Source: Candidatus Heimdallarchaeota archaeon
GTDB lineage: Archaea; Asgardarchaeota; Heimdallarchaeia; Heimdallarchaeales; Heimdallarchaeaceae
Assembly: GCA_023135215.1 (NCBI GenBank)
Contig: JAGLTP010000569.1
Span: 1 to 6,760 of the forward strand
Reading direction: 5' to 3'
DNA: 6,760 nt
Both the position numbers and the translations under genes were made by a program. Positions 1-6,598 of this stretch are shown one piece after another (position 1 is the stretch's first letter; each line of letters opens with the position of its first letter). A model generated the notes under the pieces. It saw only the letters and a program-made list of their open reading frames with translations, had not been told where the DNA came from and did no database searches.

Positions 1-3000
1 CCTAGAATGTGTGTAAGTTCTATAAGGGAAACTGGTCCCAACGACTCAATAAATTTGAGTAGAATATATTTTTGGCTTTCTTCATAACTTGGAAGATTTC
101 CTGATGGTAGATATCTTGAAGAGATATCGTAGACATTGGGTATAAATTGTCTAGGAAGGAAGGAGTCTGTTGTTAGTGATCTCCTCACCAACTGAAGAGT
201 TTTATCAAGTATCATGATACTTTCTTGTGCAATATCATCATCCAATTCCGTGAATTCTATAATTTCTCTTTTCGTCAAAGGTCCATATTTTCTTATTGCA
301 GAAAGTATTTTATCCTCAACTTGAGTTAGTTTAAAGTGTTCTCGATATGCAGTGTAATAGTAGGGAAACATTGATCGTGTAACATAAGCGATTCTTCCAT
401 GACTGAATCTTCCCCTTATAATCTCATTCTTCTCAATATAATCTCTTACCCAACCTATATCATAATCTTGAATTCTAACAGCTAAAGAACTCAATTCCTC
501 AATTGATCCCAGAGTATCCAATATATCAATAATACTTTCTTGTCCGCTAGTTTCTTGAACAAGATATGTCTCAACAGTGAAATAGTAATGGATGAAATTT
601 AGGTCTTCTGGAGTCAATATCAGAGAATCAGGTTTTCTATTGCTTAAGTTTCTTAATAGCTCTCTGTCTGCTAATCTTATATATTGAGGATCAACTGAAG
701 CTTCAATTATCTGACCTTTGAGTATCTCACTCTTCTGTTCCAACTCAGTTAAAGCTCTAACTATTTTCTCTTCCTCAACTCTTAGATATACTACTATTTC
801 TTTTGCTGTGGATGGACCATGCACCTTAAGATATCTTAATAGGAGTTTTTTCAAACATTCCTCAGGATCTAATCGTTTTGCTTGTTTTCTCAAATCCTCT
901 GGGATAATCTCATCGATTAAACAGTACTTCCACTTTTCTTTTCCCCCAAAGAGTTCGAAATCAGTTCTTGCGATTAGTAATGCACTTTCTAATGCAGTTA
1001 ATCTCTTTTCTATAACATCCTTGGATTCATCTATTTCTTCTGTAATATCCTTAGAATCTAGTGGATGTTTGGTCTTCAGTAGTTTCAGGATTTTCTTATC
1101 CATATCAGTTAGCTCAATGGATTTACCATACACATTCCAGAAAATCTGGAAATCATTAACGGGTATGGTTCTTCTTTCTCCCTTAGCAATGTGAATCTCT
1201 AAAAGCTCCTTACTATTATGGAGAGAAAGAACCCATTTTCTTATCTGTTTGGAATCTGAAATAGATAAATGATAGATACTGGGATCAATACTTTCAATTG
1301 TTTTGATTGGAGCTAGTGCTTTAATTGCACTTCTCAATTGTTTTAGTGTGGAGATGGGTAATTCGTTATTTTTGTAGCTTCTATTATTAAAGATTCTAGT
1401 AACTAATTCTTTACTAAAGAGAATTTCTTTAGTTCCTTCTTTTCCGAATACTTTAGCAAGAACTTGTTGATGTAAGTCTCTAAGTAATGCGCTACGGTCT
1501 GAAATTTGTACAATATCTGCTACTCCCAACAACACTATACCATGAGAGAAAGGGCTAGAAATGTCAGAAAGAGGTGTGATTTCATATTTGAAAAGACCTT
1601 TCTCCAATTTGTTAAGAACATTTATTGAATTCTCCAGATCCATATAGTCTTTTAATATTTCTCTATAGGTCTCTTTTATTACACAGAAATTTTCTTGATC
1701 TTTAATTACTGCAAAGATTCTTTTTGCGTACATAGATTGTCTGGAAACAGGAACATTTCGATCTACATTTCTTCTAAGAATCATTAAAGCTCTATTTGCT
1801 ACATGTCTGAATCTTGTTTGAAAGAGTTCAGTGTTAATTATTGCTTTTTTGAGTATTGCTTCAAGATTTTCTGATGATACCAGCTCTGGAATGATTGCTG
1901 TATCAATCATTTTATTCAGGGGAAGCATTAATAGAAAACCATTATCGTTTACTGCGGAACCTACATCCGCATCAATCTTTTTTCCTATTGCATATGCGAA
2001 AGCTCTAGACAACGCATCATTTACTCTTCTTCCATAATAGCAATGAAAGATAAGATTCAACCTTCCTTGTGGATCGATGAAAGATTCAATTAACAATCTT
2101 TTATCACTTGGAACAGTATTCATGAAGAGCAATTGTTCTCTGACATAGTCGACTATTGTCTGAGCTACTATTTCATCAACTTGAAAAGACCTCATTACCC
2201 AATCTTTGACTTCAACTTCCTCTTCTTTTTGAATTTTTTGAGCAACTGCTTCAATGAATCTACCAATCTGTTGTGATAACTCAAATGATCTAGGTAGTTC
2301 TTCTCCTATCCAGTTTGGGATAGATGGTCTTCTTCCAAACGCTTCTGAGACTACAACTCTAGATCCTACTGTTCTTCTGAACTGATATGTATGACTCCCA
2401 AGAACAAATATATCTCCTGGTGTTAACCTTTCCACAAATTTCTCAGAAAGCATTCCTAATCTTGTTCGATATGTTTCCAATTCAACTCTGAAATCTGAAC
2501 TATCTGGGATTGTTCCTACATTTGTATAAAATATCATGCGGGTATTTCTTTTCTTTCCAAAAGCCTTTTCCTGGTGATCATACCATATCTTTCTGTATAC
2601 CTTCCTTTCTTCCATTTCAAGGTTGTGACCTCCCAGATATTCAAGGACATTAATAAAATCTGTAAACTTAAGTGATTGAAAATTATAAGATCTCTTTATT
2701 AGTTGATAAGCTTCATCCACTTGCCACCTTTTGTTTATTGACATAGCAACAACAAATTGTGCAAGGACATCCAAACAGTTTCTCGGGATTTGGACTTTAT
2801 CTATGTCACGACTATACGTGCTTTTATTTATTACAGCACATTCTATTGCATCATCCCTGTCTGTAACAATTAACCTTCCTTTTGCAAATCTATCTAAAGA
2901 GTGCCCACTTCTTCCAACTCTCTGCATATACTTTGCTACGGTTCTTGGAGATCCAATCTGCGCTACTAGCTCTACACTTCCAATATCTATACCCAATTCT

Positions 3001-4055
3001 AGAGATGTTGAAGTTACAGCTGCTAATAATTCATTGTTCTTTAATCTGTCTTCAACATCAAGTCTTATCTCTCTGGATAAACTCGAATGATGAACTGCTA
3101 TTGAAGAGGAGTATTCATCACCAAGAAACTCTTTTAGTTTAAATGCAACACTTTCAGCTCCTTTTCTTGTATTAGTAAAAATAATAGAAGTTTCGTGATC
3201 AAGAATTAGGTCTGAGAGGATAGTGTAAATTCCTTCTTGAGCCATAACATAAGGTGTGTGCAGAAGATCTTTAACTGGACTTTTAACTTCCAAATCTAGC
3301 TTTCTTTGTGGAGGTAAATTAGCTATGTAACACTCGTTCTCTTTTCCATTATCATCTAAACCCACTAAAAATCTAGCAATCTCTTCAATTGGTGCTTGAG
3401 TTGCCGATAATCCTATTTTTGTGACTTTTTGATTAGTAATTTCTGCTTGAAGGTATTCTAAGCAAAGAGACAAGAATACTCCTCTTTTGTTAGAGCTTAC
3501 TTCATGAATTTCATCTAGTACTACCCACCTTACGCTCTTTAGATGTTGAGAAAATTTAGGTGATGTGAGAATTAAGCCTAGGCTCTCAGGTGTTGTAATC
3601 AAGATATGTGGAGGTGTTTTCAGCATTCGAGTTCTTTCAGCTTGAGTTGTATCTCCAGTCCTTACTTCTGCTCTTATCTTGGGGGTGACTATATTATTTG
3701 CTGCAGCTAAATCTTGAATTCCTTGTAAGGGTTCTTCTAAATTTTTTCTTATGTCATTACCCAATGCTTTGAGGGGAGAGATATAAAGAACATAAATTTG
3801 ATCTTTCAAAGTGCCTTTCTTAGATTCTATGAATAGTTCGTTGATTGCAGCTAAGAATGCTGCAAAAGTTTTACCTGATCCTGTCGAACTAAAAACCAGA
3901 GTATTTCTTCTATCGTGTATTGAAGGAATAGCATACAACTGAGGTAGAGTAAATCCACTAGGAAAACTCGAAGTAAACCAATCTTTTATTTCCTCTGCAA
4001 GAAAGGAGAATATAGCTCCCGTTGTAGAAGGCTGATCAAGATAATGCAGCGTCAT
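1..4055 (-). CDS. lhr: Long-form Lhr-family DEAD/DEAH helicase (3' end beyond the window)
   Basis: ATP-dependent superfamily 2 helicase of the Lhr family, whose members translocate on single-stranded DNA and unwind DNA or RNA:DNA in repair or RNA metabolism. The frame is open from the ATG at 4055 to the left edge, at least 1351 codons, and the C-terminus is missing. Seen in order: Q-motif region (FTLPQ, ~35-39), Walker A TGSGKT (58-63), SPLKALGNDI (~133-142), TTPE, DEIHE (181-185), SAT (217-219), IFTNTRKGAE, and motif VI QRVGRSGH (378-385). Lhr-core signatures follow: GTIPD (514-518), PNWIGEELPRS (~580-590), FHCYYGRRVN (~670-679), RFRH (748-751), ETYRE (795-799) and SPFSHGIVL (~834-842). This matches the roughly 860-residue Lhr core. 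Residues ~985-1351 form a winged-helix array, described separately. A TATA box about 33 bp upstream supports the start. No Shine-Dalgarno site is visible. Most archaeal Lhr proteins I know are shorter, about 850-950 residues. Confidence 0.95.
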   Translation of the reverse strand, partial: MTLHYLDQPSTTGAIFSFLAEEIKDWFTSSFPSGFTLPQLYAIPSIHDRRNTLVFSSTGSGKTFAAFLAAINELFIESKKGTLKDQIYVLYISPLKALGNDIRKNLEEPLQGIQDLAAANNIVTPKIRAEVRTGDTTQAERTRMLKTPPHILITTPESLGLILTSPKFSQHLKSVRWVVLDEIHEVSSNKRGVFLSLCLEYLQAEITNQKVTKIGLSATQAPIEEIARFLVGLDDNGKENECYIANLPPQRKLDLEVKSPVKDLLHTPYVMAQEGIYTILSDLILDHETSIIFTNTRKGAESVAFKLKEFLGDEYSSSIAVHHSSLSREIRLDVEDRLKNNELLAAVTSTSLELGIDIGSVELVAQIGSPRTVAKYMQRVGRSGHSLDRFAKGRLIVTDRDDAIECAVINKSTYSRDIDKVQIPRNCLDVLAQFVVAMSINKRWQVDEAYQLIKRSYNFQSLKFTDFINVLEYLGGHNLEMEERKVYRKIWYDHQEKAFGKKRNTRMIFYTNVGTIPDSSDFRVELETYRTRLGMLSEKFVERLTPGDIFVLGSHTYQFRRTVGSRVVVSEAFGRRPSIPNWIGEELPRSFELSQQIGRFIEAVAQKIQKEEEVEVKDWVMRSFQVDEIVAQTIVDYVREQLLFMNTVPSDKRLLIESFIDPQGRLNLIFHCYYGRRVNDALSRAFAYAIGKKIDADVGSAVNDNGFLLMLPLNKMIDTAIIPELVSSENLEAILKKAIINTELFQTRFRHVANRALMILRRNVDRNVPVSRQSMYAKRIFAVIKDQENFCVIKETYREILKDYMDLENSINVLNKLEKGLFKYEITPLSDISSPFSHGIVLLGVADIVQISDRSALLRDLHQQVLAKVFGKEGTKEILFSKELVTRIFNNRSYKNNELPISTLKQLRSAIKALAPIKTIESIDPSIYHLSISDSKQIRKWVLSLHNSKELLEIHIAKGERRTIPVNDFQIFWNVYGKSIELTDMDKKILKLLKTKHPLDSKDITEEIDESKDVIEKRLTALESALLIARTDFELFGGKEKWKYCLIDEIIPEDLRKQAKRLDPEECLKKLLLRYLKVHGPSTAKEIVVYLRVEEEKIVRALTELEQKSEILKGQIIEASVDPQYIRLADRELLRNLSNRKPDSLILTPEDLNFIHYYFTVETYLVQETSGQESIIDILDTLGSIEELSSLAVRIQDYDIGWVRDYIEKNEIIRGRFSHGRIAYVTRSMFPYYYTAYREHFKLTQVEDKILSAIRKYGPLTKREIIEFTELDDDIAQESIMILDKTLQLVRRSLTTDSFLPRQFIPNVYDISSRYLPSGNLPSYEESQKYILLKFIESLGPVSLIELTHIL
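3..1103 (-). other. Tandem winged-helix-like units in the Lhr C-terminal region
   Basis: Protein-level repeat inside the helicase gene, residues ~985-1351. Five segments share the pattern of a helix ending in a short turn (HP, HGP, LGS, YGP or LGP), then a second helix with K/E-E-I/L. The turns fall near residues 998 (KHPLDSKDI), 1081 (HGPSTAKEI), 1184 (LGSIEEL), 1259 (YGPLTKREI) and 1341 (LGPVSLIEL), so the spacings are about 83, 103, 75 and 82 residues. This spacing suits consecutive winged-helix domains. The C-terminal domain of bacterial long Lhr is known to be a winged-helix array related to the DNA glycosylase AlkZ/YcaQ. The homology is inferred from this pattern; no structural comparison was made. 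The last unit is cut by the window edge. Confidence 0.6.
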
Positions 4056-4082
4056 TATGCTACTTTTTGGTAAGTTTTTCAC

Positions 4083-4093
4083 TATATATATTT
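4083..4093 (-). promoter_or_regulatory. TATA box of the lhr gene
   Basis: The minus strand reads AAATATATATA, centred about 33 bp upstream of the ATG at 4055. Archaeal transcription starts about 25 bp downstream of TATA, so the message would begin only a few bases before the start codon and be essentially leaderless. The absence of a Shine-Dalgarno sequence before this ATG fits. The box lies just after the acetyltransferase stop codon, so lhr could be transcribed alone even though it follows that gene closely. Confidence 0.6.
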
Positions 4094-4098
4094 GAGTG

Positions 4099-4614
4099 TC
4101 ATTGAGAAGAAAGATCGCTAAATGTGTCTTCATTTTCTTCTCTTTTACCCCATTCCATTACGTATGCAGACTCTCCATCTCTGTAGTATTCCTTATGTTC
4201 CTTTTTTATGTAAAAACCTAGTTTCTTGTACATTTCAACTGCAGCGATATTGGAAACTCTCACTTCAAGATAAACTGAAGAAACTTTTTGTTCAATCATT
4301 TTCTTCATACCATATTTCATAATCTCAATACCCAATCCTTGCCGTCGATATTTGGGTAGTACTGCGATTGAGATTACATGTCCTTTTACAGGATTCATGC
4401 CCATAAAGGAAGAAAAGGGACGCTCTACTCTGGATAGGAGATAACCAATTACTTGACCATCTTGTTCTGCAATCGCACATGCAAAACCAAAATCAGTTAT
4501 AATTCTATAGAAGAAATCAAAGGAATAGTTCTCGGGGAGACATTGTCTATTTATCTTTATCATATCGTTTATGTCTCCTAAATCCGCTTGTCTGACAAAG
4601 GATTTTTGTTCCAT
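4099..4614 (-). CDS. Archaeal N-terminal acetyltransferase, Ard1/NatA-type (GNAT family)
   Basis: Transfers acetyl from acetyl-CoA to the alpha-amino group of protein N-termini, the role of archaeal Ard1 (eukaryotic NAA10 relative, also called RimI-like). Length is 171 residues from the chosen ATG, typical for the family. Visible landmarks: R8-x-A-D-L-x-DI at the N-terminus; LPENY (26-30), which carries the conserved Glu of archaeal Ard1; GHVISIAVLPKYRRQGLG (78-95), strand beta-4 plus the acetyl-CoA pyrophosphate loop R/Q-x-x-G-x-G (90-95); LEVRVSN (116-122); MYKKLGF (128-134); and YYRDGESAY (143-151). An acidic tail of about 15 residues follows. An in-frame ATG at 4656 would add 14 residues, but the 4614 start is preferred: it has a good Shine-Dalgarno site and the family alignment begins there. 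The gene ends 43 bp before lhr on the same strand. Confidence 0.93.
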   Translation of the reverse strand: MEQKSFVRQADLGDINDMIKINRQCLPENYSFDFFYRIITDFGFACAIAEQDGQVIGYLLSRVERPFSSFMGMNPVKGHVISIAVLPKYRRQGLGIEIMKYGMKKMIEQKVSSVYLEVRVSNIAAVEMYKKLGFYIKKEHKEYYRDGESAYVMEWGKREENEDTFSDLSSQ

Positions 4615-4701: not shown

Positions 4702-4732
4702 AAGCAAGAAAACTGAAAGCATATTGCATTAT

Positions 4733-6010
4733 ATGTCGTCCCCAAAAGAACCAGATGATTCAGAGGAATTATCTCGAGAACTTGTAAAACAATATGATTA
4801 TGCAGATAGCTTGCTGAATCATTGGATTACAACATTTGGATTGGACAAAACTCTGAAGATTATTGAGAATCTAAGGAAACCATATGATACTATTTGGGTT
4901 CAAGTGAATAAAAGTAGAATTGATTTTGATTCTCTTCGTATGATTTTTGAGGATATGGAGTGTGAAGTACAAAAACATCACTTGTTTGAGGATTTCCTAG
5001 AAGTTAAAGTGGAGAAGAGAGATTTCTCTATTGAAGATCCCGAAATTCCTTCTGTCATAGTTGATATCGAATCTTCTTCAAATATTTCTTTAGGAAAAGA
5101 TGTCCATACAGCTGCAATAGTAAAAAACGACAAGTTTGTTTCAGGAGATAAAGTGAAGGTATTGGATCATACGGGGAGTATTATAGCATTAGGAGTAGCA
5201 GAAGTTAACAGTAAAGAAATTCAGTCACTTTCCCAAATGACCGTAGTAAATGTTTCTGATTCTCTTGGATATATTCCTCCCATAACTGAACTTAGTGTTT
5301 ATAGGAGAGGTTTCTTCAATATATTAACTCCAGTTCAAGCTATTGGAGTAAAATCGCTCTATTTAGATAAAATGGATAACATTCTTGTAGCTTCGAGTGA
5401 TAGAGGGGAAGTTGCATGTTACATTGCAGAGCTAACAAACCATAAAACACCAATAACAGTCATTGCACAAAATGAATTACAAGTTAAAGCTATAACAAGG
5501 CAAATTGAAAGGGTAAAAACCAAGGCAATAAGATTATTACATGTTCCTTTTCTCACCTTTTTGAGAGAAAGACATGAAATGAAATATAGCTCTGTATATC
5601 TAGGATTACAGAACTCAAGAACAGCAATTAAACCTGTTTTTTCTTCGAATCTTAGTGCAGGAAAATTAAGAGAGATGGTGAAAGCACAGACTGATATAGT
5701 TACTTACCTATTTAGATGCCTGCATGAAAATGCATCAATAACTTATACTACGCATTCAATGGATTATTTAGAGAACGAAGGAATTTTCAAGAAGATATTG
5801 GAGAAAGCTTATTATGAGAGTCAGAGCTTTCCAGAGGAAGTAAGAATTCTTCAAACCAAGAAAGTACTCAAAGCTAGAGAAGCTCCAATATTGGACACTA
5901 AAGGAATCTCAATGGACCTAAAAAATTCATCAATATTTCTGGATCCTATTGAAACTGGTAATATTGGTGGTTTTCTTGCTAAATTTAAATTTAAACTTAA
6001 AACAAACTAA
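4733..6010 (+). CDS. NSUN6-like PUA/methyltransferase-fold protein, probably catalytically inactive
   Basis: Length is 425 residues from the ATG at 4733; an in-frame TTG at 4724 would add three, and a stop lies at 4700. The architecture is that of NSUN6-type RNA m5C methyltransferases: an N-terminal domain (LRKPYDTIWVQVN, ~47-59), a PUA RNA-binding domain (~105-172; KDVHTAAIV, GDKVKVLD, GVAEVNSKEI), and a Rossmann methyltransferase domain (~190-425) ending in GGFLAKF, the family's closing strand. The catalytic machinery is gone. The SAM loop, normally CAAPGGKT, reads SSDRGEVA (~221-228). The ribose-binding Asp after strand 2 is Q246. Motif IV, normally D-x-PCSG, reads GLQNSR (291-296). Motif VI, normally TCS/TCT, is THS with H341 in place of the catalytic Cys, while the following ENE is kept. 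Inference: it keeps RNA binding and fold but does not methylate, perhaps acting as a partner or RNA-binding factor. Assignment to the fold is firm; the function is unknown. Confidence 0.85.
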   Translation: MSSPKEPDDSEELSRELVKQYDYADSLLNHWITTFGLDKTLKIIENLRKPYDTIWVQVNKSRIDFDSLRMIFEDMECEVQKHHLFEDFLEVKVEKRDFSIEDPEIPSVIVDIESSSNISLGKDVHTAAIVKNDKFVSGDKVKVLDHTGSIIALGVAEVNSKEIQSLSQMTVVNVSDSLGYIPPITELSVYRRGFFNILTPVQAIGVKSLYLDKMDNILVASSDRGEVACYIAELTNHKTPITVIAQNELQVKAITRQIERVKTKAIRLLHVPFLTFLRERHEMKYSSVYLGLQNSRTAIKPVFSSNLSAGKLREMVKAQTDIVTYLFRCLHENASITYTTHSMDYLENEGIFKKILEKAYYESQSFPEEVRILQTKKVLKAREAPILDTKGISMDLKNSSIFLDPIETGNIGGFLAKFKFKLKTN

Positions 6011-6031: not shown

Positions 6032-6598
6032 TCATGATAGATGTATATCAAGTTCATTTACAAGCCATGTAAATGCTTCTTTAATTCCCTTCCCATGTAA
6101 AATACTTGTATCAAAAACAGCGAATGTTCTATCTTTCAAATCAAGATGCAGCCCTAGCATTTGTATTAACAATGGTGCTTCTACAGCTCCAGGTAGATCT
6201 TGCTTATTAGCCATGATTAGTGTAGGTACGTTTTCCATGTAAGGGTTGTTAAAAACATGTGTCTTGAGAACGTCTCTTGCTTCAGGAAGACGCTCAATAT
6301 CAGCAGCATCAATGACAAAAATGACAGCACTACATCCAGGATAATGTGCTTCCCACAGAAAACGAAAATGTGATTGTCCTGCAACATCAATAGCTGTTAT
6401 AGTCCATCCTTCAAATTCAAACGACTCTATGTTTTGCCCTATGGTTGGTGTGAGGTTTTCAGCAAATCTACCAAATCTCATAAATCGAGTTAAGGTTGTT
6501 TTACCTGCTGCATCTAGCCCTAATATTAATATTTTAGCCTTTTGCTCTTTCTTTAGTTTTGCTCTCAACCATGAGGAAAACGAACCAAACATGCTCAT
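6032..6598 (-). CDS. Arf/Arl-family small GTPase (Asgard type)
   Basis: Ras-superfamily GTP-binding switch of the Arf/Arl branch, whose eukaryotic members recruit effectors to membranes. Length is 188 residues, near the family norm of about 180. G1 is GLDAAGKT (27-34), the Arf-type P-loop; G2 is T52 in TPTIG; G3 is DVAGQ (71-75), with the Gln used for hydrolysis; G4 is NKQD (131-134); G5 is TSI near 164-166. Eukaryotic Arfs usually have WDVGGQ at G3; here the Trp is Ile70 and the first Gly is Ala73. The N-terminus (MFGSFSSWLRAKLKK, 3-17) looks like an amphipathic helix, as in Arf, but residue 2 is Ser, so the myristoylated Gly is absent. The start at 6598 has a TATA box about 44 bp upstream; Met3 at 6592 is a possible alternative. 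The gene converges on the NSUN6-like gene. Its cellular role in Asgard archaea is not known from the sequence. Confidence 0.93.
   Translation of the reverse strand: MSMFGSFSSWLRAKLKKEQKAKILILGLDAAGKTTLTRFMRFGRFAENLTPTIGQNIESFEFEGWTITAIDVAGQSHFRFLWEAHYPGCSAVIFVIDAADIERLPEARDVLKTHVFNNPYMENVPTLIMANKQDLPGAVEAPLLIQMLGLHLDLKDRTFAVFDTSILHGKGIKEAFTWLVNELDIHLS

Follow-up and report, generated by a model that had tools for sequence, protein, structure and literature searches.

We analysed a stretch of 6,760 nucleotides from Candidatus Heimdallarchaeota archaeon (assembly GCA_023135215.1, contig JAGLTP010000569.1), hereafter the window, which carries a gene that our comparisons support as encoding a pseudoenzyme that descends from an RNA methyltransferase of the NSUN6 type and has been conserved. 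The reading frame is open from 4724 to 6010 on the plus strand and, with a TTG start, comprises 428 codons for amino acids; we took the ATG at 4733 as the start (425 residues), and the Met that it encodes does not vary across the family alignment. Model and sequence together place an RNA recognition motif (RRM)-like part, an inserted PUA domain and a Rossmann core in the order found in NSUN6, a predicted NSUN6 fold with PUA. The PUA domain had been proposed in an earlier note made from the letters of this DNA alone, and Pfam recognised it (Table 1), whereas the methyltransferase domain scored under the Pfam cut-off (23.5 versus 27 bits). In the archaeal NSUN6 protein PH1991 the RRM motif comprises residues 34-79 and 173-185, according to the available part of PMC6393295.

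Table 1. Features of the window and the evidence on which each was placed
Feature	Coordinates	Strand	Evidence
Gene for the 425-aa pseudo-NSUN6, made up of an N-terminal/RRM-like part, the PUA domain and a degenerate Rossmann methyltransferase domain	4733..6010	+	
N-terminal extension, with the first RRM-like part (roughly residues 1-100)	4733..5032	+	Alignment to PH1991
PUA domain, residues 106-175	5048..5257	+	Pfam PF01472, 2.4e-8
Former motif I (SAM loop), SSDRGEVA, residues 221-228	5393..5416	+	Alignment to PH1991 and homologues
Ala245, replacing ribose-binding Asp233 of PH1991	5465..5467	+	Alignment to PH1991
Former motif IV, GLQNSR, residues 291-296	5603..5620	+	Alignment to PH1991 and homologues
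Former motif VI, THS, residues 340-342	5750..5758	+	Alignment to PH1991 and homologues
ENE, residues 347-349, retained after motif VI	5771..5779	+	48/48 readable homologues
Closing strand GGFLAKF, residues 412-418	5966..5986	+	Family alignment
Lhr-type helicase, N-terminal part, cut by window edge	3-4133	-	
Arf-family small GTPase, very strongly conserved	6032-6598	-	9.8e-44; convergent direct neighbour in 16/21 loci

The window protein was aligned to PH1991 (PhNSun6; PDB 5zvd, 5zve, 5zvg and 5zvh), which is a tRNA 5-methylcytosine-72 (m5C72) methyltransferase, and to relatives of each kind, with the S-adenosylhomocysteine (SAH) contacts of PH1991 taken as named in the available part of PMC6393295. 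Results showed that a single one of these 13 contacts, Gly213 (here Gly225), is identical and that the other 12 differ; neither the S-adenosylmethionine (SAM)-binding motif I nor the ribose-binding Asp was detected in the window protein. Among the changes were Asp233 to Ala245, Lys215 to Val227, Asp277 to Gly291 (a position held by Glu in 39 of 44 rows of the family alignment) and Tyr304 to Ala318, and the position of Phe308 is occupied by Ile, as it is in 10 of 21 active Asgard relatives. Neither the TC nor the PC cysteine is present: Cys280 of motif IV is replaced by Asn294 and the catalytic Cys327 of motif VI by His341, so that in this alignment the ribose Asp, the motif I Lys and both cysteines are all lost together. 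The earlier note had described the replaced motifs (SSDRGEVA, GLQNSR and THS) and the retained ENE and GGFLAKF as we found them, but had put Gln246 in place of the ribose-binding Asp; it is Ala245 that matches Asp233, and Gln246 is the next residue.

A protein search returned 49 homologues, of which 44 made up the family alignment (A1); the five shorter ones were excluded from it, yet were included in motif counts. Asn294, Ser295, Arg296, His341, Ser342 and the ENE are identical in 48 of 48 readable homologues, the remaining one (P0049) being gapped there, and Asp223 and Gly225 occur in all 49. Because Asn294 and His341 are found in 48 of the 49 and the last is gapped at both positions, the replacements are not due to chance or sequencing error. 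For the pair formed by the window and locus L001 the ratio of non-synonymous to synonymous substitution rates (dN/dS) was 0.125, and among 231 pairs the 12 with the least divergence gave values from 0.09 to 0.25; as yardsticks, the neighbouring Arf and GNAT genes gave 0.022 and 0.18 for the same pair. Conservation in alignment A1 was higher at the motif IV and VI positions than at positions drawn at random from within the domain (0.753 versus 0.635, p 0.0004), indicating that the former active site, once remodelled, was maintained. Ranked by conservation, Asp223, Asn294, Ser295, Arg296, His341, Asp344 and Glu347 fall within the top 60 residues of the family alignment. The earlier note had named two observations that would speak for a decaying gene instead of a conserved pseudoenzyme, namely orthologues with intact motifs beside a lone degenerate copy and a dN/dS near 1; none of the 48 readable homologues has intact catalytic motifs, and the ratios lie far below 1. 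All in all, the replaced SAM contacts and cysteines are fixed across a family under purifying selection, with extra constraint at motifs IV and VI. Since the SAM pocket and both cysteines are lost and the remodelled version is under selection in many Heimdall-type archaea, the gene is best read as encoding a long-lived non-methylating relative, and not as a broken gene.

The 21 genome loci that we found are all labelled as Heimdall or Asgard archaea, and within the family of genome G008 the gene is present in 21 of 23 genomes. A search of 58 genomes of the class revealed pseudo-NSUN6 in 42, distributed over the lineage of the window (H, 21 genomes), a second lineage (T, 12) and a third (N, 9); three genomes (G100, G191 and G195) had only other NSUN matches and 13 gave no match at E 1e-20. 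Lineages were assigned by motifs where these were read, that is in 16 rows of the window's lineage, 11 of the 12 second-lineage genomes (the copy in G110 is a fragment) and all nine third-lineage genomes, with G196 and G197 assigned to the window's lineage by score alone. Motif VI was reached in 15 of those 16 rows, and all 15 have His. The second-lineage set consisted of 37 proteins, after removal from 38 of P0054, a member of a fourth lineage (V), and includes members labelled Heimdallarchaeota or Kariarchaeaceae and one labelled Methanobacteriota. In all 37, His replaces the catalytic Cys and Asp223, Asp344 and Glu347 are present; the motif IV Cys is kept in three, and the positions of Asn294-Ser295-Arg296 are held by Ser (33/37), Thr (22/37) and Glu (28/37). 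The catalytic position is taken by Asn or Ser in the third lineage and by Ile or Pro in the fourth, whose motif VI reads ISL or VPS. At the third-lineage loci L081, L082, L084, L085, L092 and L149-L152 the ribose Asp is kept in some and either Cys in none. The fourth lineage was seen in two genomes (L094 and L101), outside the list of 58. A profile search with all lineages returned six proteins from the best 7998 candidates by words in common, and a single scan of viral contigs with one protein confirmed no relative.

Trees built without the motif columns were used to ask whether catalysis had been lost once or several times. In the tree of 67 rows, degenerate and active proteins are split by one branch (99/92), and the split persisted (98/94) in a tree of 50 rows from which further SAH-contact columns had been removed; the window's lineage and the second were grouped at 100/99 in both. 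When either of the other lineages was held with the active NSUN6 group in approximately unbiased (AU) tests, p was 0.047 for the third and 0.041 for the fourth, and independent losses are therefore disfavoured only marginally; long branches, a known risk, could mislead here.

We then considered whether the protein might, in the manner of Trm6, serve as the inactive half of an RNA methyltransferase heterodimer, partnered by an active NSUN paralogue or by some other methyltransferase. The counts of active paralogues come from the genomes of relatives. Of the 23 genomes in the family of G008, 20 contain a match of the NSUN6 type, 389-407 amino acids long, and the ten such proteins whose motifs were read all have C[AS]APG, PPC and TC intact. 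Eight genomes of the window's lineage were searched for PF01189, and in seven an NSUN6-type protein was found whose motifs are intact; the eighth (G003), however, carries the pseudoenzyme without an NSUN6-type match. In contrast, no recognised active NSUN6-type protein was found in any of the ten second-lineage genomes searched (12 are known) or in the two of the fourth lineage, and only one of the five third-lineage genomes searched (nine known) has one. In G171, of the second lineage, PF01189 matched nothing at E 1e-6. Two classifications were near ties: L104 (second lineage, G151, 328 amino acids) scored 188.6 bits as NSUN6 and 187.6 as Trm4-like, and the fragment L125 (third lineage, G127, 176 amino acids) 94.7 as RsmB-like and 93.1 as NSUN6. 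In the window's lineage none of the genes directly adjoining the pseudo-NSUN6 gene (Lhr helicase, GNAT and Arf) encodes a methyltransferase. The absence pattern speaks against obligate pairing with the parental enzyme, and the heterodimer offered as an option in the earlier note now appears unlikely.

A role as an RNA-binding factor fits better than that of a heterodimer subunit, and our favoured interpretation, which we consider somewhat probable, is that the window gene encodes a catalytically dead archaeal NSUN6 paralogue, kept by selection, that works alone in binding RNA. The protein by itself would bind structured RNA, most likely the acceptor/CCA end of tRNA, as its parent does, making contact through the PUA domain, the RRM-like part and the remodelled cleft. 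Asp223, Asn294-Ser295-Arg296 and His341-Ser342 may form a binding surface in place of the methylation site, and the role would be that of an RNA chaperone, a quality-control factor or an assembly factor instead of a methyltransferase. At the positions of PH1991 that contact tRNA, the CCA contact Glu174 corresponds to Glu186, which is Glu in 44 of 44 rows of the family alignment, and Asn98 corresponds to Asp111, the residue also seen in 20 of 21 active Asgard relatives.

Several observations weigh against this interpretation. Tyr112 of PH1991 is His125 in the window protein, at a position that varies within the family; the N73 pocket Ser190/Gln107/Tyr41 has become Gln202/Leu120/Trp55, at positions where active Asgard relatives vary too; and only 7 of 37 second-lineage proteins have Glu at the position of Glu186. 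For any single genome, the lack of an active paralogue is a soft observation, because genome completeness is not given. Synonymous sites are saturated in most pairs, the median ratio of non-synonymous to synonymous differences per site (pN/pS) over all 231 being 0.45 and the maximum 0.63, and in the comparison with L001 constraint on this gene is weaker than on the adjacent Arf gene. The 13 SAH-contact columns alone were not significantly more conserved in alignment A1 (0.693, p 0.093), and the positions for the conservation test were picked after the alignment had been seen. Finally, an in-frame stop near residue 372 interrupts the gene at one locus out of the 21, L013 (which appears to be the copy of G080). 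This stop may reflect either a misassembly or a genuine loss. Four further matches were flagged with one stop (G004, G193, G183 and G086), which we read as terminal because the open frames span nearly the whole profile. The statement of the earlier note that decay is confined to catalysis is too simple, since several published tRNA-contact positions are altered as well and conservation at the motif IV and VI positions exceeds that of the domain outside them.

The rebuilt cleft could instead have gained a new activity or a small ligand through Asp223, Asn294, Ser295, Arg296, His341, Ser342, Asp344 and Glu347. Most of these residues belong to the 60 most conserved, and Asp223, His341, Asp344 and Glu347 extend to every second-lineage protein. 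Nevertheless, Asn294-Ser295-Arg296 is not retained in that lineage and the third and fourth have no His, so that no complete catalytic set is held in common, and no known catalytic motif was matched; we regard this alternative as improbable. That the gene is decaying, as the stop in L013 might suggest, or still encodes a methyltransferase with unusual residues is very hard to believe given the low dN/dS, the fixed replacements, the retention of the gene throughout most of its family and the joint loss of the ribose Asp, the motif I Lys and both cysteines, and as decay this reading already fails. A bolder reading, which we put forward only tentatively and hold to be unlikely as a whole, would have a single ancient loss early in Asgard/Heimdall evolution give rise to a pseudo-NSUN6 superfamily of four lineages that outlived active NSUN6 in some genomes. 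The old methylation cleft would then have become a new site for recognising or processing the ends of RNA, and in both lineages with the His this site would centre on Asp223 and His341.

The gene neighbourhood was compared among the same 21 loci. Genes for a GNAT protein and an Lhr-type helicase lie nearby in 20, and an Arf-type GTPase gene is present in 19, directly downstream and convergent in most of them, further off in two and rearranged in one; the loci with missing neighbours (L010; L020 and L021) sit at contig ends. The helicase of relatives is about 1908 amino acids long, and the protein that follows it there, of about 780, matches winged-helix domains only weakly. An Rpb6-family gene, which occurs close by in the window's lineage as well, stands beside the second-lineage copies L136 (by Pfam) and L140 (by similarity), 54-56% identical to the L018 copy, and a class I lysyl-tRNA synthetase gene lies downstream of second-lineage copy L138 (Pfam). 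Genes for archaeosine tRNA-guanine transglycosylase and RNase HII occur near third-lineage L142 (Pfam), with similar ones seen by eye at L144 and L145. Taken as a functional clue, the contexts of the lineages disagree and indicate no function.

Pseudo-methyltransferases as such are already known; an archaeal NSUN pseudoenzyme was not found among the papers listed by our searches of the open-licence PubMed Central (PMC) literature. Human NOP2/NSUN1 has no inserted PUA domain of the NSUN6 kind and is an active enzyme, unlike the window protein. It acts non-catalytically in ribosome assembly, as stated in the available part of PMC9561284, and offers a precedent for an NSUN protein with one role in which methylation is dispensable. 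Human NSUN6 (PDB 5wwq-5wwt and 9imb) is 17-18% identical to the window protein in the alignments to these structures. With respect to PH1991, the SAM contacts, the ribose Asp and both catalytic Cys are replaced and the N73 pocket residues differ. The active-site differences presumably hold against human NSUN6 as they do against PH1991. Asgard archaea are the archaeal group thought closest to eukaryotes, and within it 42 of 58 genomes of one class carry a pseudo-NSUN6, which makes it testable whether the fold of an RNA methyltransferase can be kept purely for RNA binding. Trm6 is the dead paralogue of a tRNA methyltransferase and pairs with its active paralogue Trm61. The window protein resembles it in being a dead tRNA-methyltransferase paralogue too; in contrast to Trm6, whose partner is the active paralogue, none of the ten genomes searched in the second pseudo-NSUN6 lineage has a recognised active NSUN6 paralogue. 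Lineages that have such a paralogue and lineages that do not provide a natural comparison.
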